64,000 bases of DNA from NCBI GenBank assembly GCA_017406985.1, contig JAFQXL010000004.1, forward strand, positions 247,708 through 311,707. The letters are read 5' to 3'. Below, one piece after another: positions 30,485 through 64,000 of the stretch. The position numbers and the translations under genes are program-made. Source of the stretch: Candidatus Saccharimonadota bacterium. Lineage in GTDB: Bacteria; Patescibacteriota; Saccharimonadia; Saccharimonadales; Saccharimonadaceae. Every line of letters begins with the position of its first letter. Position 1 is the stretch's first letter. Below the pieces are notes generated by a model. That model had not been told where the DNA came from. It searched no databases and saw only the letters and a list, made by a program, of their open reading frames with translations.

Positions 30485-31144
30485 CTAGACCTCTTCTCTC
30501 GCTTTCGGGAAAGTCGCTGGGTTAAGATAGTTAAAATTAGTATATTCCGGCATATATTTTTCGACGTAACGCTGGACAGTTTGATGGTGACAGCGGAGAC
30601 GCTTTCCGATTTTAGTCCAAGAAAGACCTAGGTTCATATAAGCGAGAATCCGCCCCTCCTTTCCATAAAGTTTATATGATTCCTGATAAAATGTTCCGAC
30701 AGGGCGTCCGAGTTTTCTTCCCTCGGCTTTAAGGCGGTTCATAGCCTCTTTTGTTCTCTGCGAAAGTAAAGTTCTTTCGATTTCGGCAGAAAGTCCGAAT
30801 GCGAACGCGAGAACCTTTGCTTGAATATCGTCGCCGAGCCGATAGCCGTCTTTAATTGTCCAGACTTGACACTCTTTCGTCATGCAGATATTTAAAATTT
30901 CCATAATCATAAAGAGGTTACGTCCGAGCCTTGAGAGCTCAACACAAATAATTAAATCGTCTTTTTTAATTTTTCGAAGTAATTTTCCGAGACGTCGTTT
31001 ATCATAATTTTTAGCGCCAGAAATCGTTTCGGAAATCCAGCCGTCGATTTTTAAACCTTGTTTTTTACAAAAATTATTAATTTCGAAAATCTGGTTTTCG
31101 AGAGTTTGTTTATCGGTTGAAACGCGGATATAGCCATAAATCAT
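30485..31144 (-). CDS. Serine DNA invertase of the Bacteroides Mpi type
   Basis: 219 residues from ATG 31144, chosen because AAAGGAG lies 8 nt upstream. Catalytic serine in MIYGYIRVSTDKQTLENQ (residue 9); then ELSRLGRNLFMIMEILN, YRLGDDIQAKVLAFAFGLSAEIER and RTKEAMNRLKAEGRKLGRPVG, closely matching Mpi invertases that flip polysaccharide promoters in Bacteroides. C-terminal helix-turn-helix (GLSWTKIGKRLRCHHQTVQRY). No resolvase-type host element surrounds it. Candidate enzyme for the inversion loci at 37973 and 63237. Confidence 0.87.
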   Translation of the reverse strand: MIYGYIRVSTDKQTLENQIFEINNFCKKQGLKIDGWISETISGAKNYDKRRLGKLLRKIKKDDLIICVELSRLGRNLFMIMEILNICMTKECQVWTIKDGYRLGDDIQAKVLAFAFGLSAEIERTLLSQRTKEAMNRLKAEGRKLGRPVGTFYQESYKLYGKEGRILAYMNLGLSWTKIGKRLRCHHQTVQRYVEKYMPEYTNFNYLNPATFPKAREEV

Positions 31145-32385: not shown

Positions 32386-33327
32386 ATGTATATTTCTGAG
32401 CTAATTACCGATTTTCTGGAAAGCCTCGAAATCGAAAAAGGCCGTTCGACTCGAACGATTGAAAACTATCGTCTATATCTCGATAGATTTTATACGCTTT
32501 GTGCGGAAGAAATCGAAGGAGATGACTTAAGACCTAAAGACATTACACCAGAAATGCTCCGAAAATACCGCCTAAAACTTAACCGTTTTGAAGATAACCA
32601 GAACCACGAAAGGCTTTCCGCTTTAACTCAAAGTTATCATTTAATTGCGCTTCGCGGATTTTTAAAATATCTCGCGAAACGCGGAATTAATTGTCTCGAT
32701 CCAAGTTTAGTCGACTTACCGCGCGCCGCGAAAAAACAAGTAACGTTTTTACATTATGACGAGATTGAAAGACTTTTAAACGAAATCCCGACCGATACGG
32801 AAACTGGACTTCGAGACCGCGCAATTATCGAGCTTCTATTTTCAGGAGGACTGCGTGTTTCGGAACTCTGTAAGTTAAATCGCGACAGTATAAATCTTGA
32901 GCGTCGCGAATTTGTCGTTCGCGGAAAAGGTCGAAAAGACCGTCCGATTTTTATCGACCAGTCAACGGCGGAACGCGTCAAAGATTATCTCGATGCGAGA
33001 ACCGACAGTTTACCGGCGCTTTTCTTAAATAATTCTCAAAATCTCCAGATGCCTTCGACTTCGGGAGATTATCGACGGCTTACCCCGCGTTCGATTGAGA
33101 GAATCGTTCAAAACTACACAAGAAAGGCCGGAATAACAAAACATGTTACACCGCATACTTTAAGACATTCTTTCGCGACGGATCTTTTAATGAACGGAGC
33201 GGATTTACGCTCGGTTCAGAGCCTACTTGGACACGCGAATATCGCGACAACTCAGATTTATACTCACGTAACTGACCCGCATCTTCGAGAAGTCCACGAA
33301 AAATTTCATAGCGAGACAAAATCATGA
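32386..33327 (+). CDS. xer: Tyrosine recombinase XerC/XerD
   Basis: 313 residues, full length. N-terminal SAM-like DNA-binding domain (ITDFLESLEIEKGRSTRTIENY), catalytic domain with Arg in SGGLRVSELCKL, Lys in RGKGRKDRP, HTLRHSFATDLL and LGHANIATTQIYTH (catalytic Tyr). It probably resolves chromosome dimers at dif; with no second Xer in the window it may act alone. Its stop overlaps the prepilin peptidase start by 4 nt. Confidence 0.92.
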   Translation: MYISELITDFLESLEIEKGRSTRTIENYRLYLDRFYTLCAEEIEGDDLRPKDITPEMLRKYRLKLNRFEDNQNHERLSALTQSYHLIALRGFLKYLAKRGINCLDPSLVDLPRAAKKQVTFLHYDEIERLLNEIPTDTETGLRDRAIIELLFSGGLRVSELCKLNRDSINLERREFVVRGKGRKDRPIFIDQSTAERVKDYLDARTDSLPALFLNNSQNLQMPSTSGDYRRLTPRSIERIVQNYTRKAGITKHVTPHTLRHSFATDLLMNGADLRSVQSLLGHANIATTQIYTHVTDPHLREVHEKFHSETKS

Positions 33328-37232: not shown

Positions 37233-38756
37233 TTACCTAGCAACACAACGAATTGATAGCCCGAGATCCTTCTGGTTACTCCAACTCGCATTAACAGTTT
37301 GGTTCCATATGTTTATGAAATAGGCGGTTATATCTCTAGATGCTGTAGATGACCAATAAAAAGTCCCGAGCTCATATTCTCGAAAGTTGCCATTATATAC
37401 ATTCCCATTAAAATCCATATCAACGGGAGCGCTTCTTAATGATGCTGCGCTTGGGTAGTAACTGTAAAGTGTTTGAAACTCGCCGGCAGGGTCCCCAGTT
37501 GGAAGTCGCCAGTTCTTCGCACATATTGAGTTACTAGCATTACCGCTTGTTACGCTCGTTGTCCCCCAACCTACAGTTGCTGTATAGAAAGAATAGTATC
37601 CCCCGTGGCTATTTAAATATGCATTGTTTTTGTTATATCCGGAAAATTCCGAAAGCGAAGTTGACGGAACGGTAAAACTTCCGGAAGATATATCAGAAGT
37701 TGAAGAATCCAAGGTTTTGCCGATAATTCTTAAATTCTCCGTCATCCAGCAGTTCCCATCCGCGAGCTTCCTAATTCTGTATGTATTATTATCTCTTGAA
37801 TCAATTAATGTTGTTTCTGGAATATAGGAAGTGGATTTGCCATAGGATGAATAAGTGTCTTTTGTAACACTTGTAGTTGCTGAAGCGACTGGAGTCTGAA
37901 CTGTATTGCAAACACTACTTGTCATGTCCTGCATATAAGTAATTGTATAGAAAATTGGTATCCATTTTGCTCTAAGCACAACCGCCATCGCGTTACTTGT
38001 ATTCGGGTTCGTATTTCCGGTATAAATATTGGAACCATTAGTCCATCCGGCAAAGGTATAACCAGTCTTAGTAGGAGTATAAGCAGATAAATCTACGTTA
38101 CTCCCATAGTTAACATTAATATTAGGATATAGGGTAGTAGTACCATCTTCATCTACAAAGGATAATGTATATTGTAGGCACCTATTATCTACCACAACCG
38201 TATAGACAACATCATTAGTATAAGTACCAGAAGGAAGGGTATTATCTAGTTTAACACCATAAGTAACTCCTATAGTCTTATTAGTCTCTACACTTGTACT
38301 AGAATAAAGAACAGCTGGAGTAGTAGAGACAGGAACCTGAGAGAAAGCCTTTCCATCAACTTTGAAACCCCAAGTATTGTCCGTGAGTCCACTTGCTCCA
38401 GCTACAGCAGAAATAGTTTTAACACCAGTATCAGACCCGGTGCGCGTCAGTGAGTTATTAGTAGTACTATTAGTATTAATGTAAATATAAGAACCAGCAG
38501 TACAAGTATTACTAAATGTAATATTATTCGTAGTAGTATATTCAGTTTGAGTTGAGGTAGGGGTAATAGGGATAGAAACAGTATCATCATTAGAGATAGA
38601 AGCTGAACAGGCAGAAGAGCCGGCAGAAGCAGAAGTGGTAGTAGCCTCAGTATATTCAGGACTAGAAGTTATTAGACTTACTGTTAAGGTTAATAATAAA
38701 AATGAGCAGAAAACTGCTACAAAAGATAAAATATTGTTCGTGGAAAGGTTTGTCAT
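37233..38756 (-). CDS. Secreted surface protein, expressed form: shared N-terminus joined to a DUF1566/Fib_succ-like C-terminal cassette
   Basis: 507 residues. Signal/anchor segment near 8-30, a Ser/Thr-rich region, then an InlB/Flg_new-type repeat (TPTKTGYTFAGWTNGSNIY...RAKW, about 228-265). After that comes a variable C-terminus with RIRKLADGNCWMTENLRI, ICAKNWRLPTGD and YWSSTA, typical of Fib_succ_major/DUF1566 surface domains. Residues 241-261 are encoded by the 62-bp inverted repeat, so everything upstream of it, with promoter and leader, sits on the invertible segment. AGGAG lies 6 nt before the ATG. Confidence 0.85.
   Translation of the reverse strand: MTNLSTNNILSFVAVFCSFLLLTLTVSLITSSPEYTEATTTSASAGSSACSASISNDDTVSIPITPTSTQTEYTTTNNITFSNTCTAGSYIYINTNSTTNNSLTRTGSDTGVKTISAVAGASGLTDNTWGFKVDGKAFSQVPVSTTPAVLYSSTSVETNKTIGVTYGVKLDNTLPSGTYTNDVVYTVVVDNRCLQYTLSFVDEDGTTTLYPNINVNYGSNVDLSAYTPTKTGYTFAGWTNGSNIYTGNTNPNTSNAMAVVLRAKWIPIFYTITYMQDMTSSVCNTVQTPVASATTSVTKDTYSSYGKSTSYIPETTLIDSRDNNTYRIRKLADGNCWMTENLRIIGKTLDSSTSDISSGSFTVPSTSLSEFSGYNKNNAYLNSHGGYYSFYTATVGWGTTSVTSGNASNSICAKNWRLPTGDPAGEFQTLYSYYPSAASLRSAPVDMDFNGNVYNGNFREYELGTFYWSSTASRDITAYFINIWNQTVNASWSNQKDLGLSIRCVAR
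37973..38034 (-). repeat. 62-bp inverted repeat, left copy
   Basis: Perfect reverse complement of 39194-39255. Codes for the stretch SNIYTGNTNPNTSNAMAVVL of the expressed gene. Confidence 0.97.
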
Positions 38757-38986
38757 TGTATCTCCTATTTTTTTATAGGCGACACCTTAGTTTCTAACAC
38801 TCTAAGAAACAATAAGGCGCCACTAGGTTGGATACAACTCTACATATTAACAAATCTCGGAGCAAACCTTGATCCATCATGCTTTGTCGTCCTAATGACG
38901 CCTACCTTGCGCATGATGATTGTTAATATATGAATTGTACTCCTATCTATAAAAATAGGATTTGTTAATATGTTAAAATTGTATCC
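38757..38986 (-). ncRNA. Structured 5' leader of the invertible surface-protein gene
   Basis: The predicted +1 (38986) is the first base of a 27/28-nt arm that pairs with 38830-38856 (GGATACAA... with ...TTGTATCC), one bulge and two mismatches. Enclosed are smaller hairpins, including CATCATGC/GCATGATG. A second hairpin (38778-38821) follows, and CCTAT/ATAGG just before the ATG could hide the AGGAG site. It resembles a regulated leader, but matches no riboswitch I recognise. Confidence 0.55.
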
Positions 38987-38992
38987 ACTCTC

Positions 38993-39022
38993 ATTATACC
39001 GCAAGTAACTTATGTATTTCAA
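38993..39022 (-). promoter_or_regulatory. Promoter of the invertible gene
   Basis: -35 TTGAAA (39017-39022), an 18-bp spacer, -10 TATAAT (38993-38998). Initiation 7 nt later falls on the first G of the leader's closing stem. Confidence 0.65.
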
Positions 39023-39107
39023 GCCTTGAAATTAGTAGTTTTTATGTTTTAATTTGCTGTAATTATAAAGCTGTTATGCTTGTGGAAAACTTTAAGAAAT
39101 AATTTGG

Positions 39108-39113
39108 TATAAT
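39108..39113 (+). promoter_or_regulatory. -10 box of a short outward transcript
   Basis: TTTGGTATAAT pointing to the right repeat, about 7 nt before the hairpin described next. No good -35 is seen. Confidence 0.5.
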
Positions 39114-39119
39114 ATAGAT

Positions 39120-39169
39120 ATTGAGAGGCGACTTGGAAGCTCTGCTTCGAGGCCAAGCCTCTCTTTTTT
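39120..39169 (+). terminator. Terminator-like ~50-nt transcript guarding the silent cassette
   Basis: Stem GAGAGGC / GCCTCTC (39123-39129, 39057+100 to 39163), then TTGG/CCAA and AAGC/GCTT inside, followed by six T. Transcription from the box at 39108 would make only this hairpin. It stops just before the right inverted repeat and would travel with the segment, so it would always face whichever cassette is silent. A small regulatory RNA is the alternative. Confidence 0.65.
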
Positions 39170-39193
39170 GCCTCTTATTAGATAAAATAAACC

Positions 39194-39255
39194 TTCCAAT
39201 ATTTATACCGGAAATACGAACCCGAATACAAGTAACGCGATGGCGGTTGTGCTTA
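39194..39255 (+). repeat. 62-bp inverted repeat, right copy
   Basis: Perfect inverted copy of 37973-38034; homology stops abruptly on the inner side and fades as diverged coding homology (K/R-AKW) on the outer side. Confidence 0.97.
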
Positions 39256-40145
39256 AGGCGAAGTGGACTATTGTAGACTATGTAAAGAACTTTAGCTATA
39301 CAGGCGGTGAGCAAACGTGGACTGTGCCGTATAGTGGGTATTATAAACTTGAAGTTTGGGGTGCGAGCGGAGGCGGCAAAAGCGGTTTAATCGGAGGGTA
39401 CGGGAGTTATTCTACTGGGGTGGCATATTCCGCTACGAATTCAAAATATTATATTAACGTAGGTGGCGCAGGTCAATATGGTACTACGGCCGGCTATAAC
39501 GGAGGAGGAACCGGAACTGACCACTCCGGCTCTGGTGGCGGAGCGACGCATATTGCAAAATCGTCTGGGTTATTAGCAACTTTATCTGCAAAAGTTTCAG
39601 ATATTCTAATAGTTGCTGGTGCAGGCGGAGGAGCATCGGACGCAAGCAATTATTCTTGCACTTGTCAGATAGCTGCTGGTTCTCATTCTGGCGGCATACA
39701 GGGGAATCGTGCTAACTATGACGGATGTTATAACCATAGTTACGGCTCCCTGCCAACTGGCGGATCGCAAACTACTGGCGGAAAGGCAGTAAGTTTAAAT
39801 CAATGCACTAGTGGTAATGGGTCTTTCGGTAAAGGTTCTAATGCTTGCACGGCCTATAACGTAGTCGGCGGCGGAGGTGGAGGGTATTATGGCGGAACTG
39901 CAGGCTCTGTCGGCGACAACTGCAATATCTTTGGCGGAACTGGTGGTTCCGGTTACATTGGTTCCTCAAACCTAATTTCTGGCGGCGGAACTACCAAACA
40001 CATGACGTGTTATTCCTGCACAACCTCAAGTGATGCTAATACAAGAACCTACTCTAATACAAACGTCTCTGCTACGCCAACAGCAGATTATAGTAAAACC
40101 GGTAATGGCTACGCGAGGATAACTTATCTTGGGACGAGTATATAG
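39195..40145 (+). CDS. Silent C-terminal cassette: glycine-rich surface domain without promoter or start
   Basis: An open frame of 316 codons that enters through the right repeat (NIYTGNTNPNTSNAMAVVLKAKW) and continues into a glycine-rich domain with FSYTGGEQTWTVPYSGYYKLEVWGASGGGKSG and many GGG/GGA runs plus about ten cysteines. The first ATG (39240) is an internal Met of the repeat, with no ribosome-binding site. Gly-rich GEQxWxVPxxGxYxxEVWGAxGG domains are common surface modules. Expression would need inversion; fused length 557 residues. Confidence 0.8.
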   Translation, partial: SNIYTGNTNPNTSNAMAVVLKAKWTIVDYVKNFSYTGGEQTWTVPYSGYYKLEVWGASGGGKSGLIGGYGSYSTGVAYSATNSKYYINVGGAGQYGTTAGYNGGGTGTDHSGSGGGATHIAKSSGLLATLSAKVSDILIVAGAGGGASDASNYSCTCQIAAGSHSGGIQGNRANYDGCYNHSYGSLPTGGSQTTGGKAVSLNQCTSGNGSFGKGSNACTAYNVVGGGGGGYYGGTAGSVGDNCNIFGGTGGSGYIGSSNLISGGGTTKHMTCYSCTTSSDANTRTYSNTNVSATPTADYSKTGNGYARITYLGTSI

Positions 40146-40516: not shown

Positions 40517-41680
40517 ATGGAAGATTACTCAAAATATGACTTAATCGTAGTGGGAGCAGGATTTTATGGTGCAACAGTCGCGAATAAAATCGCCGAAAGA
40601 GGTAAAAAAGTTTTAGTTCTAGATAGAAGGAATCATGTCGCGGGAAACGCTTATTCATATCGCGACGAGAAAACTGGAGTCGAAATCCATAAATACGGCT
40701 CACACATTTTTCATACAGAAGATGAGGAAGTTTGGGAATATATTACAAAGTTTACTGAATTTAATAATTATATCCATACCGTCCCGACAAGACATAATGG
40801 AAAACTTTATCCGATGCCGATAAATCTCAATACGATTAACTTACTTTACGGGACAAACATGGGGCCAGAAGAAGCGGAAGAGTTTGTCGCAAACGAGGCG
40901 AAAAAAGCCGGAATTACAGAACCAAAAAACTTCGAAGAAAAAGGAATCTCGCTAGTTGGAGAAAAACTTTACACGACCTTTATTAAAAATTATTCTGAGA
41001 AACAATGGTCAACAAGCGCGGAAAATCTTTCGGCAGATATTCTCTCGCGAATTCCAGTTCGCTATTCGACTGATGATAGATATTTTATGACTGCGAAATA
41101 TCAAGGTATTCCGATAAATGGATACGGAAAAATCGTTGAGAAAATGTTAAGTAGCCCGAATATCGAAGTTAGACTTTCGACCGATTTTATCGCGATTATG
41201 GACGAAATTCCGGCGGAAATACCAGTGGTTTATTGTGGACAGGTCGACGAGCTGCTTGATTATGAACTTGGGGTTTTACCATATCGTTCCCTTCGCTTCG
41301 AGGCGGAATGGGTCGATGAAAACACGGAAGACGGAGCCGACTCGAAACTCGGTCATGCCGTTATTAACGAGGCAGATTCCGACGTCGCTTATACGAGAAC
41401 ACACTTCTATAAATATTATCAGATTCACGAGCCGGAAATTATCGCCCAGCCGAAGTCTTACGCGGTGCGCGAATATCCAGCGGATTTTGTCCGAGGCGGC
41501 GAAGCATATTATCCAATCAATAACGCCGAAAATGAGAACCTTTATAGTCAATATGTCGAACTTCTCGCCGACCGCTATCCGAATATTACGCTTGGCGGAA
41601 GGCTCGGCGCTTATCAGTATTGGGACATGGATAAGGCAATCCGAAACGCGCTTGATTTCGTTGAAACCTTAGGAGTTTAG
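40517..41680 (+). CDS. glf: UDP-galactopyranose mutase
   Basis: 387 residues. FAD-binding start (DLIVVGAGFYGATVANKIAERGKKVLVLDRRNHVAGN, dinucleotide fold) and the mutase signatures GVEIHKYGSHIFHT, KQWSTSAENLSADI and LPYRSLRFE. Converts UDP-Galp to UDP-Galf, the donor for galactofuranose in envelope glycans. With galE at 46162 it completes UDP-Glc to UDP-Galf. The next glycosyltransferase starts directly after its stop. Confidence 0.95.
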   Translation: MEDYSKYDLIVVGAGFYGATVANKIAERGKKVLVLDRRNHVAGNAYSYRDEKTGVEIHKYGSHIFHTEDEEVWEYITKFTEFNNYIHTVPTRHNGKLYPMPINLNTINLLYGTNMGPEEAEEFVANEAKKAGITEPKNFEEKGISLVGEKLYTTFIKNYSEKQWSTSAENLSADILSRIPVRYSTDDRYFMTAKYQGIPINGYGKIVEKMLSSPNIEVRLSTDFIAIMDEIPAEIPVVYCGQVDELLDYELGVLPYRSLRFEAEWVDENTEDGADSKLGHAVINEADSDVAYTRTHFYKYYQIHEPEIIAQPKSYAVREYPADFVRGGEAYYPINNAENENLYSQYVELLADRYPNITLGGRLGAYQYWDMDKAIRNALDFVETLGV

Positions 41681-42646
41681 ATGCAAAACTCGGAGCTGAT
41701 TTCAGTTATAGTTCCGGTTTATAACCTCGAGGGGGAGATTTCAAAATGTCTTTTATCGCTCGTTTTACAAAAATATCCGAATTTCGAAGTTATTATAGTC
41801 GACGACGGCTCGACCGATAATTCCCTTTCGGTCTGTTCTAAACTAGCCGAAAAAGATAAAAGATTTTTAGTCTATCATACGAAAAATAAAGGTCTTTCTT
41901 CCGCGCGAAACTTCGGTATTTCAAAAGCAAAAGGTAAATATTTAGCGTTCGTCGACGGGGACGATTATATTGATCCGGAGTTTTTAGGCTCGCTTTATAG
42001 TTCTATTCTTCAGAGCGGTTCGGATATTGCGATTTCTGGATATACCGAAATTTATAAGAACGATTCTAAAACTTTTTTAAGAGAGCCGGAAGTTATCTCC
42101 GGAAGAAACGCAACAATCCGCCTCTTAACAAGACAAGAAAACATGGAAGTTTTAACGTGGAACAAGCTCTATAAGAAAACGCTCTTTCGCGGGATTAGAT
42201 TCCCGGACGGGAAAAACCACGAGGATAATTTTACAACTTTTCAGCTTTTAATTCGGGCAAAAAAAGTTTCTTATGTCTCAAAATCAATTTATAATTATGT
42301 TTATCGAGAAAGCTCAATTACTAATTCAGAAAAAACTTTAGAAAGATTAAAAGCAAAAGTAGAGAGCGCGAAAGAAGCGATGAAAATCTTTAAAAAAGAA
42401 GAGAAAGATTCGAGGTTATATCTCGCGGCGAAATATTCCGAACTTCTAGCCTTTTTACAATTTGTCGATTTTTCAGCAAAAGGCGAGATTCCGAAAAAAT
42501 ATTTTAAGATTTATCGAAAAAAGATTTTAAAAAATAAAGCAGAATATTTTAGAAATCCATACATCGATTTTAAACGCCAAAATTATATTCGTTTACTTTC
42601 TTCGACTAATGGATTTTTATATTATAGTTTTCGCAAATTTATTTAA
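41681..42646 (+). CDS. GT2-family glycosyltransferase
   Basis: 321 residues. GT-A fold start ISVIVPVYNLEGEISKCLLSL, nucleotide-binding VIIVDDGSTDNS and the DxD region AFVDGDDYIDPEF. The C-terminal part is basic. Immediately after glf on the same strand, so it may use UDP-Galf (inference). It overlaps the convergent ABC ATPase gene by 8 nt. Confidence 0.85.
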   Translation: MQNSELISVIVPVYNLEGEISKCLLSLVLQKYPNFEVIIVDDGSTDNSLSVCSKLAEKDKRFLVYHTKNKGLSSARNFGISKAKGKYLAFVDGDDYIDPEFLGSLYSSILQSGSDIAISGYTEIYKNDSKTFLREPEVISGRNATIRLLTRQENMEVLTWNKLYKKTLFRGIRFPDGKNHEDNFTTFQLLIRAKKVSYVSKSIYNYVYRESSITNSEKTLERLKAKVESAKEAMKIFKKEEKDSRLYLAAKYSELLAFLQFVDFSAKGEIPKKYFKIYRKKILKNKAEYFRNPYIDFKRQNYIRLLSSTNGFLYYSFRKFI

Positions 42647-43379
42647 AAAGTTTTAGGTAGCTTTCGGCGACTTTTTCCGGCTTTCCGTCTTTTATAATTT
42701 TACCGTCTTCGAGCAAGATTGCGCGGTCGCAGAAACGTCTTACATTTTCCATGTCGTGAGTAACGATAATAACGGTTTGTTCGCCCTTTAAGCCGCTAAA
42801 ATACTGATTACATTTTTCTTGAAACGCGGCGTCGCCAACGGCAAGAACTTCGTCTAAGATCAGAATATCGCCTTTCGCGCGAATCGCAATCGAAAAGGCG
42901 AGCCGAACCTGCATACCGCTTGAATAATTTTTTAATTTCTGATTCATAAACGGTTCTAGCTCAGCAAACGCAACAATTTCGTCATACATTTCATCCATCT
43001 CTTGATTCGAGAAGCCGAGCAAGGCGCCATTTAAATAAATATTCTCCTTTCCAGTCAGCTCGGGGTTAAACCCGACGCCAAGCTCAATAAATGGGACGAG
43101 CGAGCCGTTAACCTTAATTTTGCCAGAGTCCGGAACATAAATCTGACTAAGGGTTTTTAAGAGCGTTGATTTTCCGGAGCCGTTTCTTCCGACAATTCCG
43201 AGAAATTCGCCTTTTTTAACCTTAAAACTAATATCTTTTAATACTTCCTGCTTCGTATACCCCTTAATGCCTTTTAGGCGATTAAAAATAGCTTGTTTCA
43301 GGCCTGAAGATTTTTCGGTCGGGAGCTTAAAAGATTTTGAAAGATTTTTGACTTCAATCGCGTAAATATTTTTTTTCAT
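42639..43379 (-). CDS. Polysaccharide ABC exporter ATPase (Wzt/TagH type)
   Basis: 246 residues. Walker A GIVGRNGSGKSTLLKTL, ABC signature NYSSGMQVRLAFSIA, Walker B DILILDEVLAVGD. It has the polysaccharide-exporter pattern (LVPFIELGVGFNPELTGKENIYLNG) but no C-terminal carbohydrate-binding domain, so it resembles TagH/short Wzt. Works with the permease directly upstream. Confidence 0.9.
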   Translation of the reverse strand: MKKNIYAIEVKNLSKSFKLPTEKSSGLKQAIFNRLKGIKGYTKQEVLKDISFKVKKGEFLGIVGRNGSGKSTLLKTLSQIYVPDSGKIKVNGSLVPFIELGVGFNPELTGKENIYLNGALLGFSNQEMDEMYDEIVAFAELEPFMNQKLKNYSSGMQVRLAFSIAIRAKGDILILDEVLAVGDAAFQEKCNQYFSGLKGEQTVIIVTHDMENVRRFCDRAILLEDGKIIKDGKPEKVAESYLKLFK

Positions 43380-59091: not shown

Positions 59092-62000
59092 CTATGCGTT
59101 ATTTGGCGGATTTGGGTTTGGGTTCGGTCCTGAACCTCGATTAAGCATATTTCTAATATAATTATCGGCTTCTACTTGTGTCATTTGTTTATCCGCGACA
59201 CGTTTTTCAATCATTTTAATATATCTAGCTTGAGCCGAGTCTTGATTCCTGGAAATATCGATTAGTCGATCGCCGTGTTCCGAACTTAACTCGCCAGCCG
59301 TAACTCTTCTAATAATCTCGTTCTTATAAGCCTCTGGATTAGAGATAGAAATCGGAGTTGGAGCGCCGCCGTTGTCTCCCGAGTGATCGATTTTAAGCGA
59401 ATCGTTTAAGCCGGCTTGAGTATCGCGCGGTAAACCAGTTGCGTCGAGAACGCGTTGGATATTATCCATAGTTTCTTGTTTAACGTTATTATATTGTCCA
59501 GTTGTATCGTTCGCTTTAACGTTAAGAGCGCCGCTCATAAGATTAGCGATAGCCTGTTTCTCTTCAGCGGTAGTCGTAGACATCGAAGCCTTTGCCGCAA
59601 GAGCGTCAAACTCGGCGTCGTCGAAGTTAAACGCCATAGCGCCAGACTGTTTACCTTTAACAGCCGCCTGACCAGCGTAGTTAGTAGAAGCGAAGCTTCC
59701 AGCGGAAGCAGCAGAATAGCTTCCAGAGTTCGCCGCGTTCATAATTGCGTCGGCCTGATCGTTCATAGAGCGAGCTTGGCTCTTATAAATACCGTTGGTT
59801 TGGACGTGAGAAGCGTAGCGCTTCGCGGTTTGTTCGCTAACTTGGCCGCTCGAAAGAGCTTTATCCATACCTTTTCGGAGCGCTTCACGATGTTTATCGG
59901 TTCCCTTTGCGGCTTGGCGCATAAGCGCTTCAAGTTTCGCATCATCTCCGTTTACCGCGGCGTCATAAACTTCTTTAACGAAGGTTCCGTCTTGAGCAGA
60001 AATATCTTGAGTAGTTTCTTTCATGTCGCCAATATTACTAAAGACGCCGTTACTCTGATAAAGCGAAGTCTGGTCGGTAACTGCACCCTCGAATGCCTTA
60101 TCTTCAAGACCAGCTTCTCGCGCAGCATAGCCTCCGTTTAACATACGGTCAAGGTTATTTCTAGCGCCTTGCGCGTTCATGCGCGCCGTTTCGTTCGAAT
60201 TCGCGATGCGAGTTTCGGCATTTCGCTTAACGGCTTCTAGGCGACCGTTACTTGCGATAGTATGGTTCGCGAGCCAACCAAGTGCTTTGCCTCTTCTAGT
60301 TTTAGCACCAGCAGCGGCCTTTGAAGCTTTCATAGTAAGATTATCAAGTGGCTGTGAAGCCCAAGCGCGACGATTCGCGGCGGCGGCTTGCGCATTCTGG
60401 CGAGCGTTTCTAACGGCGTTAGAGTTATTAATACGGTTCGAAGCACCAGCTCCGGCACGGTTTCCGAGATTTGTAATTCTGGAGCCGAGATTACCGATTC
60501 CGTCGACAGCTTTTCGAGTTAACGACGGGATAAAGAAGTATGGAACTACACAGAGTAAACCGGCGAGGATAGTCATAAAGTGTCCCATGACAGTATTAGA
60601 ATCTGCACCGCCATAAGCGTTAAGTAAGATATGTGAAGCGAAATAACCGCCACCGATTAAAGCACCACAAATCGGATAGACCATTAAGATATTTTTAGAA
60701 ATACTAACCCATTTATCAAAGATTTTTTGAGTATTCGGGAGAGTATAGAACACAATCGCAAGCGGAGAAATAACGATTAGAGCGATGACGATTGCCTGAC
60801 GAAGTCCGAGAACGATAAGCGCGAAGATAATCGAAATAATCATTGTAAGTAGGAATAGGAGGATAGGAATAATGATTGTCCACCCCGCGAGGACTCCCGC
60901 CGCGACTACGCCGACTACCGCCGTAACGATAGAAGCGACATACGCACCCATGTGTCCGCCGCTACCGCCACTAAGAGACGTAACAGCCGGAGCCATATTA
61001 ACTAACATATCATTAATCGACTTACCAATAATATTCGAAATGTCGACCGCAACCGCACAGATAATAAAGCTTAAGTTTACGAGAATTGCGGAGATAATTA
61101 ACTTCGGGAGCATCTTTTTAATTCCGTAGTTATCGATTCCAAAACCGGTAAGCTGAGAGAAGATAACGAAGAGGAAGAAAATAACGAAGAGAATGTTAGC
61201 AATACTTCTAAAAGTATTCCATGACGGATAGATAGAACCACTATAGCTATCTGTTCCGCTCGCTAATTCCGAGACGATACTATTATCGACCATAATAAAT
61301 GGTTCAATCGCTTCATAAGTTTCAGTTACAGCGGATCTAAGCCCGAAGATAATTGGACAGATAATCCATCCGAGCGAACCGGCGTTCTGGAAACATGCTT
61401 CTTCCTCAACGTGGGTGTCGTCGACAGGATCAGCGTCGCCGTCGCCACCGCCCCCTGGCCCAGGTGTCGGGGTAGGATCAATAGTTAAATTTTTAAACTC
61501 CGCACATTCAAGACCGCCGCCGGAAGTTGCTTGAGTATAATCGCCACTATCTCTAGCGTCCACTAATTTTTGATAATCTTCTTTCTCTTCGTCCGTAAGT
61601 TCGCCTTCTTTTGCCTCATATTCAGCGATAAATTCCGCAACTTTAGCTTTAACTTCGTCCGAACCACACTCTTTTCTAATGGCATCTTTTAATGCATTTT
61701 GATAGTCGGTAGCATATTGATTTATCTTGTCAATTAATCCCCCACAAGTTGTCGGGCCGGAAGCCGCGAACGACGTCCCAGACGAAGCATTATCGGTCTT
61801 ATTATTTATCGGAGTAGCATATTTCTCGACGATTTCAGCTTTATTATTTACTATTTTAACTTTTGAAGCGAATGTTTTTGCGTTTGAATTGTTGTCCATA
61901 TATTTACTTTTATCGGCACAGACGGTCTCAAAATCTTGTTTATAAAGGAAGTAGCCAGTAGCACTATCATAAGTTCCGATATCTCCCCAAGCTTTTGCAT

Positions 62001-62586
62001 ACGGATTATCTTTCATAGCTTCAGTATAGAGTTGTCCGATATAAGCGATAGCGGCATCGTCTTCAACTTTCTTATAAGCATTTCCGGAAGCAAAATTCTC
62101 ACATTCTACATCGTTAGCGTTTTGTCTAAAGACGCCACCAGAAAGATGCCCGTTTCCGGAATCGGAATATTTATTACAAGCAACTTGAGTAATAGTAAGG
62201 CCGAATGTACTCATGAACTTTTCGAGTATACCCTGCCTACAATAGATTTCGCCGTCTTGAATTTTACCCTGTGTCTGGTTCTCGAGCCAAGCTCCAACTG
62301 CGATATTTGTCGGGATAATACTACTATCGAACCAGTTTCCATTTTCAACATCGTCAGCATAAAATGTACGGTTCATATCGCCGAGACCTTGACGGTTCGG
62401 AATGCAACGAGCGAATTTTTGAGCGACTAACTGCGCACGACCGGCGGCTTGAATTAAACTTTCGGCGTCTCCGACATCGACTTTAGCCTGATATGCAGCA
62501 AAAGCCGAAGAAGCTCCGACTGAAGTAATTAACACTGTTATAGTAACAGCCCAAAGTCCAATACGTTTTAATAAATTATTCTTCAT
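59092..62586 (-). CDS. Large VirB6/TrbL-like membrane protein
   Basis: 1164 residues. Signal segment (9-30), a cysteine-rich outer domain (about 40-400), a Pro/Gly linker, five or six membrane segments (about 460-700, such as ILFVIFFLFVIFSQLTGFGI and IIPILLFLLTMIISIIFALIVLG), then a long Ala/Asn/Gln-rich cytoplasmic tail. This matches the CPR VirB6/TrbL-like proteins of T4SS-type apparatus. Its start overlaps the 62576 gene by 11 nt. In the present orientation no promoter is seen for this operon. Confidence 0.75.
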   Translation of the reverse strand: MKNNLLKRIGLWAVTITVLITSVGASSAFAAYQAKVDVGDAESLIQAAGRAQLVAQKFARCIPNRQGLGDMNRTFYADDVENGNWFDSSIIPTNIAVGAWLENQTQGKIQDGEIYCRQGILEKFMSTFGLTITQVACNKYSDSGNGHLSGGVFRQNANDVECENFASGNAYKKVEDDAAIAYIGQLYTEAMKDNPYAKAWGDIGTYDSATGYFLYKQDFETVCADKSKYMDNNSNAKTFASKVKIVNNKAEIVEKYATPINNKTDNASSGTSFAASGPTTCGGLIDKINQYATDYQNALKDAIRKECGSDEVKAKVAEFIAEYEAKEGELTDEEKEDYQKLVDARDSGDYTQATSGGGLECAEFKNLTIDPTPTPGPGGGGDGDADPVDDTHVEEEACFQNAGSLGWIICPIIFGLRSAVTETYEAIEPFIMVDNSIVSELASGTDSYSGSIYPSWNTFRSIANILFVIFFLFVIFSQLTGFGIDNYGIKKMLPKLIISAILVNLSFIICAVAVDISNIIGKSINDMLVNMAPAVTSLSGGSGGHMGAYVASIVTAVVGVVAAGVLAGWTIIIPILLFLLTMIISIIFALIVLGLRQAIVIALIVISPLAIVFYTLPNTQKIFDKWVSISKNILMVYPICGALIGGGYFASHILLNAYGGADSNTVMGHFMTILAGLLCVVPYFFIPSLTRKAVDGIGNLGSRITNLGNRAGAGASNRINNSNAVRNARQNAQAAAANRRAWASQPLDNLTMKASKAAAGAKTRRGKALGWLANHTIASNGRLEAVKRNAETRIANSNETARMNAQGARNNLDRMLNGGYAAREAGLEDKAFEGAVTDQTSLYQSNGVFSNIGDMKETTQDISAQDGTFVKEVYDAAVNGDDAKLEALMRQAAKGTDKHREALRKGMDKALSSGQVSEQTAKRYASHVQTNGIYKSQARSMNDQADAIMNAANSGSYSAASAGSFASTNYAGQAAVKGKQSGAMAFNFDDAEFDALAAKASMSTTTAEEKQAIANLMSGALNVKANDTTGQYNNVKQETMDNIQRVLDATGLPRDTQAGLNDSLKIDHSGDNGGAPTPISISNPEAYKNEIIRRVTAGELSSEHGDRLIDISRNQDSAQARYIKMIEKRVADKQMTQVEADNYIRNMLNRGSGPNPNPNPPNNA

Positions 62587-63247
62587 CGTCTATTAACCCG
62601 TCTCTTATTTTTATAATTAGTTCTGTCATAGAGTTATTACTAATCGCGTCAGAAATCGTCTTATGGAAGATTCCTTTAATATAATCATAGTTGTTATAAA
62701 TTATTGCCGTTTCTGGATTATAGCTGTTTAGACCATTAATATATTTTGTATAAGCCTCAGCCGCGGTTTTTTCGCCACTATCTGAACTTTTTAGATATTC
62801 AGAAATAAGCGCGACGTTACTGGTTTTTATAGCGTTATAATAATTTTCATAAATTTTATATGCGCTATTATAGGAATCAATATTTTTTTCAAGACGTTCT
62901 TTAAGAGTATTAAAATCTTCTAATACTTTTTCACGAACGGAAGTTTTGTCTTTTATTGTTTCGCTAAAACTATTCGTCGAGTCAAGATATTTCTTCAGAG
63001 CTTTCTGCGAAGCGTCTTCGAAAATCGCACCGTTATTCTTACTCTTATCTATGTCGATAAAGACGTCTTCTAGTTTAATTACGTCGTCTGAATATTGAGC
63101 CATAGCCTCTCTTACTGCGCTATCATGAATTCCGGTGGTGCTACTTGAGGACGAGCCTTTCCCCTTGTTCTGCTGCAGGGCAAAATAAACGCCAACCCCA
63201 GTTAAAATAGCGAAGACGGTAATAATGCCGAGGATGATAAGGAACCT
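62576..63247 (-). CDS. Promoterless cassette: membrane segment plus helical outer domain, head of the VirB6-like operon
   Basis: The frame is open from AGG 63245-63247 to the stop at 62576 (223 codons), beginning RFLIILGIITVFAILTGVGVYFALQQNK, a membrane segment, then a helical outer domain. A TAA lies directly before the AGG, and the first ATG (63103) is after the membrane segment. The plus-strand gene at 63324 has the matching segment RFLIIISIITVFAVLTGIGVYFALQQNK. Inversion at the shared 13-bp repeat would supply its promoter and N-terminus in frame (289 residues). Confidence 0.75.
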   Translation of the reverse strand, partial: RFLIILGIITVFAILTGVGVYFALQQNKGKGSSSSSTTGIHDSAVREAMAQYSDDVIKLEDVFIDIDKSKNNGAIFEDASQKALKKYLDSTNSFSETIKDKTSVREKVLEDFNTLKERLEKNIDSYNSAYKIYENYYNAIKTSNVALISEYLKSSDSGEKTAAEAYTKYINGLNSYNPETAIIYNNYDYIKGIFHKTISDAISNNSMTELIIKIRDGLIDDEE

Positions 63248-63249
63248 TT
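63237..63249 (-). repeat. 13-bp inverted repeat, left copy
   Basis: AAAGGTTCCTTAT on the minus strand; short arms AAGG/CCTT flank a TT core, as in serine-recombinase sites. Diverged homology to the right copy continues outward for about 85 bp. Confidence 0.85.
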
Positions 63250-63284
63250 ATTTTATCTAAATAGGGATTATTTACTAAAAATCC

Positions 63285-63314
63285 TTGCGAAAATGTTTAT
63301 GCTTATGTTATACT
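63285..63314 (+). promoter_or_regulatory. Promoter on the second invertible segment
   Basis: -35 TTGCGA (63285-63290), an 18-bp spacer ending GCTTATGT, -10 TATACT (63309-63314), 9 nt before the ATG. Same pattern as the pilM and 58864 promoters. Confidence 0.6.
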
Positions 63315-63323
63315 TAAACCACG

Positions 63324-64000
63324 ATGGGTCCAGAAAATAAAAATCTTTTTAATAACCGCCTTGGAATGCGCCCGAGCCGCAATCTTTCGGCTATGGACGA
63401 ATTAAACCGAATTTCTGCTCAAACTCAGGCCCAAAATCAGCCACAAACTCCGCAAAGCGTAAGCACTTCTTCTGACATTGTCTTAAGCGGCGGTTCTGCT
63501 CCGAAAAATCAGGGTAAAAAAAGGTTCCTTATAATAATCAGTATTATTACGGTTTTTGCCGTCTTAACCGGAATTGGTGTTTATTTCGCTTTGCAACAAA
63601 ATAAAAATGGCAGAATTTTTACGTCGGAATATACGAAAACTTATAATGATTATGTCGAATATTTATTAAACGGCGAAAATGCAGAAAAAACTGCTACCCT
63701 TACGACCGTTAAAGAAAATAATGAGTTAGTCTATCCTTTTAACTTTAATACGGTAAAAAAGATTACTTATAAAGAAAAAACTAATATAAATTCATATTTC
63801 GAGAATCTAAACACAAAACTAAATACTCTAAAGGAAAAAGCCGGCTCAAATAAGAAAGATAGCGTCGAGAAAAACATTACGGCGGTTGAAATCCTAGAAA
63901 AAACTATAAATTATCCAAAATATTTTAGTGAACTTAAAGCCGAATATAAAAAGAGCGAAAGCGCTGCTAAAACCTATATCCAGAACAATTTTAGTTATAG
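63324..64000 (+). CDS. Membrane protein paralogous to the silent 62576 cassette, expressed form (runs off window)
   Basis: 225 codons visible, no stop. A Gln/Asn/Ser-rich cytoplasmic N-terminus (1-65) ends in GKKR, a membrane segment (about 68-87), and a Lys/Asn-rich helical outer domain. The membrane segment matches that of 62576 almost residue for residue, but the outer domains have diverged. A nearly leaderless start. By analogy with the minus operon, a VirB6-like gene may follow outside the window (inference). Confidence 0.75.
   Translation, partial: MGPENKNLFNNRLGMRPSRNLSAMDELNRISAQTQAQNQPQTPQSVSTSSDIVLSGGSAPKNQGKKRFLIIISIITVFAVLTGIGVYFALQQNKNGRIFTSEYTKTYNDYVEYLLNGENAEKTATLTTVKENNELVYPFNFNTVKKITYKEKTNINSYFENLNTKLNTLKEKAGSNKKDSVEKNITAVEILEKTINYPKYFSELKAEYKKSESAAKTYIQNNFSY
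63520..63532 (+). repeat. 13-bp inverted repeat, right copy
   Basis: AAAGGTTCCTTAT on the plus strand, encoding K-R-F-L at the inner edge of the membrane segment. Confidence 0.85.

Follow-up and report, generated by a model that had tools for sequence, protein, structure and literature searches.

A likely DNA-inversion switch of a cell-surface protein in a Saccharibacteria genome, with an Mpi-family serine invertase as its most probable recombinase

The window analysed here is a stretch of 64,000 nucleotides (C3:247708-311707) from a 731-kb Saccharibacteria draft genome in 4 contigs, and our focus within it is a gene on the minus strand, gene A (37233-38756), and the frame that faces away from it on the plus strand (39186-40145). 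In its present orientation, gene A encodes a protein of 507 aa composed of an anchor helix, a beta-rich domain, a List_Bact_rpt/Flg_new B-repeat and a FISUMP tail. In the predicted fold, a single helix spans residues 4-30 and is most simply read as a signal or anchor; beta structure dominates residues 60-190, and residues 196-262 correspond to the B-repeat. The mean pLDDT of the predicted N-terminal half is 69.5, and we gave the N-terminal domain no name because its similarity to pilin-type beta sandwiches was non-significant (best E 0.019). The plus-strand frame is a silent, promoterless C-terminal cassette that is open from a stop at 39183-39185. The initial annotation had described the two tails as DUF1566-type and glycine-rich; the former is in fact a FISUMP (Fib_succ_major) domain (TIGR02145, 9e-14), while the latter can be specified as the ALK/LTK glycine-rich domain ALK_LTK_GRD (PF12810, 1.2e-31).

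Gene A and the silent cassette are connected by a pair of inverted repeats. Positions 37973-38034 within gene A (minus strand) match the reverse complement of positions 39194-39255 at the opening of the silent frame (plus strand) at 62/62 bp, with a spacer of 1159 bp, and when the imperfect edges are counted in, the arms reach 87 nt at 89% identity. The central claim of the initial annotation, that perfect 62-bp repeats lie in one codon phase with one copy inside the gene and the other opening a promoterless frame on the opposite strand, is thus borne out by the coordinates of repeats and open reading frames. It had also named a promoter and start in front of the glycine-rich frame as evidence against a switch; the frame has no promoter of its own, and there is no start codon ahead of the repeat. 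Since a whole-genome scan for inverted repeats of at least 22 bp with arms less than 30 kb apart returned just a handful across the 731-kb genome, a chance origin of the 62-bp pair is excluded. The arm within gene A encodes approximately residues 242-261, which form the C-terminal edge of the B-repeat domain, so that either tail joins after a complete domain.

The unique part of the segment between the repeats (38035-39193) carries the promoter, the leader RNA, the signal/anchor and the N-terminal domain of gene A, so that, as in an inverton, inverted repeats enclose a promoter-bearing segment and, as originally proposed, leader and secretion signal both lie between the repeats. The promoter is sigma-70-like (38993-39022, minus strand; TTGAAA-18-TATAAT, 11/12), and its TATAAT is kept in four homologous segments, while the number of promoter-like matches overall, 10 against 9.1 expected, is about what chance would give. 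The earlier claim that this is the only promoter is therefore upheld as to its location inside the segment; that it is the only one is suggested by its conservation and by the lack of a better candidate, which falls short of proof. The segment also carries a strongly structured 5' leader of 234 nt (38757-38990, minus strand; z = -8.6), with 13 pairs showing compensatory change in 3 sequences, which we consider a candidate regulatory RNA. No Rfam family matched this leader. Two of its conserved boxes, GGCGTCATTAGG and CCTARTGGCGCC, might pair into a long, pseudoknot-like helix, while for a further box, CCTATTTTT, the Shine-Dalgarno region is a possible partner. A terminator-like hairpin (39121-39168, plus strand; core stem 39149-39161; sequence GAGAGGC...GCCTCTCTTTTTT) stands at the silent end of the segment; it points toward the silent tail whichever way the segment is oriented and would insulate the silent cassette.

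Scripted inversion of positions 37973-39255 converted the 507-aa protein into a protein of 557 aa, in frame, exactly the exchange that had been predicted. We consider it highly probable that the locus is a DNA-inversion switch of a cell-surface protein, with an Mpi-family serine invertase encoded 6.8 kb away as the most likely recombinase, which would probably serve a second switch in the genome too. In this mechanism, an invertible segment of ~1.16 kb would bring the promoter, the structured leader and the N-terminal half of the protein (membrane anchor, beta-rich domain and B-repeat), recombination between the 62-bp repeats would join this head to either the FISUMP tail or the glycine-rich ALK/LTK-type tail, and the terminator, which sits at the segment's opposite end, would silence the unused tail in both orientations. 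The assembly of the source genome shows the present orientation only, and we infer inversion in this genome from the architecture of the locus. The inversion interpretation has nonetheless gained support and is now much more likely, because of the second switch, the nearby Mpi-type invertase and the assembly pattern of a relative, which are described below. The locus is real, and it is very likely an active switch.

The strongest argument within the genome against the locus being an accident is the second switch. The whole-genome inverted-repeat scan revealed another 62/62-bp pair, at C3:369862-369923 and 371060-371121, in a paralogue of gene A with a head that is 62% identical. Its repeat has a different sequence from that of the first locus, at the equal protein position and in equal phase, and both of its tails are glycine-rich. 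The paralogous segments of the two switches are 71% identical in DNA, i.e., they differ by 29%, and each locus keeps arms that are 62/62 identical. The repeats of the two switches have no long core in common, at most ACCGGAA and GGTTxxGCTTA, and this sharing is explained in part by common coding sequence. Beside the second switch there is a small frame (G000:C3:368224-368742), which we take to resemble a MazF/PemK-type protein and which is 40% homologous to a frame beside the Mpi gene of another genome of the genus, G143 (L105 9355-9834).

The candidate invertase (30488-31144, minus strand) is a serine recombinase of 219 aa that belongs to the Mpi master DNA invertase family (NF009949, 304.2 bits, with a curated cut-off of 272 bits) and is the sole serine recombinase of the genome, being its only PF00239 match. 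Its translation bears the motifs YGYIRVSTDKQ and SRLGR, its relatives in the PDB are chains of Tn3/gamma-delta resolvase and DNA invertases, and a C-terminal helix-turn-helix was read, unscored, from the sequence. The only tyrosine recombinase of the genome is XerC/D-like (32386-33327, plus strand) and could be either a rival candidate or a housekeeping enzyme. The motif of Bacteroides Mpi repeats, ARACGTTCGTN (PMC8375218), or GTTCGTTTAA, is absent as such from the 62-bp repeats, GTTCGT being present in the first locus and not in the second, which bears on the recombination sites rather than on the family membership of the enzyme. We dropped GGTTACGCTTA as a possible recombination core because the genome has it at other places too and its letters spell common codons (V-T-L). 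Every switch-type head that was checked contains ACCGGAA (ACTGGAA on contig C17 of the relative G084), and the non-switch heads lack it; it falls within the 23 bp to which the crossover in G084 is confined (see below) and is a weak candidate for the core.

Mpi genes above the cut-off are rare, being found in four of the 174 genomes of the genus (the source genome, G084, G085 and G143) and, apart from the window's own, in one further genome (G406) of a 380-genome sample of the phylum. The initial annotation had suggested that related genomes be compared for extra cassettes and for the flipped form. Extra cassettes do exist: of the three other Mpi-bearing members of the genus, two (G084 and G085) have promoterless cassettes that bear the same repeat. 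In G084, the closest relative with the same genes, contig C17 holds a full switch with arms identical at 98/109 positions, in which identity is unbroken solely in runs of 23-28 bp. Another switch, with 73-bp identical repeats, is made up by C10 together with C13; these two contigs have 141 bp in common where the N-terminal gene starts. We did not count this overlap as evidence of two orientations, since it shows only a branch. The same coding repeat opens each of the promoterless cassettes of G084, on C24 (two), C37, C32 and C10 (dispersed cassettes at L133 11765-13940, L134 98-1180, L136 98-1147 and L137 449-1297), and their tails are glycine-rich, laminin-G-like or unnamed. Several contigs of G084 end at cassette repeats.

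As for the flipped form, none of the source species has been seen, and it is the assembly graph of G084 that seems to contain both orientations. The first 141 bp of C37 and C32 are shared exactly, after which the two contigs diverge into two cassettes; the shared part consists of a stretch unique in the G084 genome plus approximately the first 23 bp of the repeat. Because the outer flanks of both contigs have homologues that lie side by side in the source genome (C3:362709-365462), C37 and C32 seem to represent one locus in which the end of the segment is joined to either cassette, with both orientations present in the assembly graph. On a plain reading, the segment itself remained a short, unbinned contig, and the assembler probably used k-mers of 141. 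Three cassettes in G085 carry this genome's own form of the repeat. Two sit at the end of C3, as an inverted pair of 50 bp, and the third where C1 begins; the head segment is missing from the assembly. The arrangement at the end of C3 may be a trace of recombination between distant sites. There (L199 1840-5110), the two silent cassettes with their 50-bp inverted repeats have no head segment between them; the intervening frames are, in our own reading, presumably an AAA ATPase-type and a TspO-like frame.

G143 has an Mpi gene and, in its nearly complete sequence, no such repeat, cassette or switch; its contig C2 stops 78 bp past the Mpi gene (L105 10487-10564), as if a repeat or switch followed. 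At the best N-terminal homologue loci of 26 genomes of the genus without Mpi above the cut-off, no inverted repeat of at least 18 bp was found within reach, and a search of viral contigs for the repeat core gave no match. In G406, which belongs to a distant family, the Mpi gene adjoins inverted repeats (70 nt at 83%) between two opposing TaqI_C specificity frames (invertase and specificity-frame region, 327-1460 and 1501-2106 of the 3.6-kb locus L235), and this locus probably represents another exchange of coding ends, in the form of phase-variable restriction-modification specificity.

The main rival explanation accepts that inversion is real and assigns it to RecA homologous recombination or to an Xer-like tyrosine recombinase rather than to the Mpi-type enzyme. 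S-layer inversion in Campylobacter fetus is RecA dependent, and 62 bp of identity here, or 73 bp in G084, would suffice for some homologous recombination. An Xer-like enzyme is also encoded nearby, and such enzymes are employed by mycoplasma systems (PMC3047005). However, cassettes with the repeat are found solely in genomes that have the rare Mpi gene, the common prefix of C37 and C32 in G084 limits the crossover to ~23 bp of the repeat, and the identical runs on C17 are short for RecA, which makes this explanation unlikely. We hold it to be less likely still that we are looking at a fixed inverted duplication, with remnants of gene ends as silent frames and no further recombination. The single orientation in the assembly of the source species would agree with such a relic, but both of its loci have retained 62/62 identity despite the divergence of their paralogous segments, the silent frames are long and open with intact domains in all species, and the assembly pattern of G084 points the other way. 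An assembly artefact or chimera at the locus, to which a draft genome in 4 contigs might lend itself, has very little to recommend it, given that the design recurs at the second locus and in the independently assembled G084 and G085 with species-specific repeat sequences. It is just as implausible that translation from the ATG at 39240 makes the glycine-rich frame a gene in its own right. This ATG is present within the repeat, but it equals an internal codon of gene A, there is no Shine-Dalgarno, signal or anchor, and a terminator lies just upstream; the cassettes of G084 and G085 have no start codon ahead of their repeat.

Inversion by the Mpi-family enzyme is thus our preferred reading, and it is not the only diversifying process in this genome. 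One further long inverted repeat of the genome, the third, is the TR/VR pair of a diversity-generating retroelement (DGR). A DGR reading of the switch locus itself was rejected, there being no reverse transcriptase among the open reading frames at ~32-46 kb of the window and the arms being identical. One DGR of the genome (G000:C3:61332-65336; L015 1332-5336) comprises a target (61332-63050) with a variable region near 63028, an accessory frame (63125-63976), a reverse transcriptase (63936-65075) and an inverted template repeat near 65158; differences fall at template adenines, and the target belongs, as a distant member, to the N-terminal family of gene A. A second DGR (G000:C1:38725-43055; L040 and the end of L039) has a reverse transcriptase at 38957-40093 and a target at 40956-43055, whose N-terminal half is 46-49% identical to gene A. 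Given the resemblance of this target to gene A, a single protein family is subject to both DGR and inversion. These DGRs are like the switch in that they diversify proteins of the same N-terminal family and unlike it in their use of a reverse transcriptase and TR/VR, neither of which occurs at the switch locus.

Saccharibacteria live on the surfaces of other bacteria and, to our knowledge, variation of the proteins with which they touch the host is largely unknown. We infer that the segment inverts in the source species with the serine recombinase as the agent, and that the alternative tails alter surface contact, be it with the host cell, phage or immune system. A reversible switch between two binding-type tails, together with a candidate enzyme and the cassettes of relatives, provides a testable basis for host-range change or phage escape. 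G084 and G085 suggest a dispersed cassette system that works alongside DGRs on one protein family. We tentatively propose, as a possibility that we rate somewhat below even, that some Saccharibacteria have a genome-wide stock of dispersed promoterless C-terminal surface domains marked by one coding repeat, to which promoter-bearing N-terminal heads are joined by an Mpi-type invertase, also through inversion across distant sites, with DGRs operating in parallel. If true, an epibiont with less than 0.8 Mb would have two independent means of diversifying the proteins that contact its host.

Comparison with known systems highlights both similarities and differences. In the G segment of phage Mu (Gin) and in shufflons (Rci), alternative C-termini are joined to a constant N-terminus by inversion, with the tails inside the invertible DNA and promoter and N-terminus outside. 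The present locus is the reverse, since promoter and N-terminus lie inside the segment. In sapA of Campylobacter fetus and vsa of Mycoplasma pulmonis, the sole promoter sits on a segment whose flipping determines which of the alternative surface proteins, all with a conserved 5' region, is expressed; these systems use RecA or Xer-like recombination, and their protein families are unlike those of the Saccharibacteria switch. Bacteroides fragilis Mpi flips promoters (Coyne 2003, cited in PMC12632263 and PMC4747536), and the invertible promoters of B. intestinalis measure 183-186 bp (PMC8375218). The Bacteroides system shares with ours the recombinase family, the several dispersed loci per enzyme and the variation of the surface, and differs in that only promoters flip, loci are turned on or off and the repeats are short and noncoding, whereas here there is an exchange of coding sequence between longer, coding repeats. 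Our findings would widen the role of the Mpi family from promoter flipping to protein domain exchange. The closest architecture is that of the mba locus and the UU172 element of Ureaplasma (PMC3047005), in which inversion connects a surface-protein head in turn with the frames on its two sides. There too, an N-terminal segment with signal/anchor flips between an in-gene repeat and a spacer repeat to give in-frame fusions, at several loci per genome. Unlike here, the host belongs to the Mollicutes, the recombinase is unknown, an Xer-like enzyme being suspected and no Mpi present, the repeats are of ~21-51 nt and the protein domains are different, so that the architecture is shared while homologous proteins and a Mollicutes host are not. 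The initial annotation had considered the exchange of C-terminal domains undescribed for this lineage. We found no report of inversion switching in Saccharibacteria or Patescibacteria in the mainly openly accessible literature, although the general mechanism is known from Ureaplasma (PMC3047005); what is new here is only the lineage, the type of enzyme and the dispersed cassettes.
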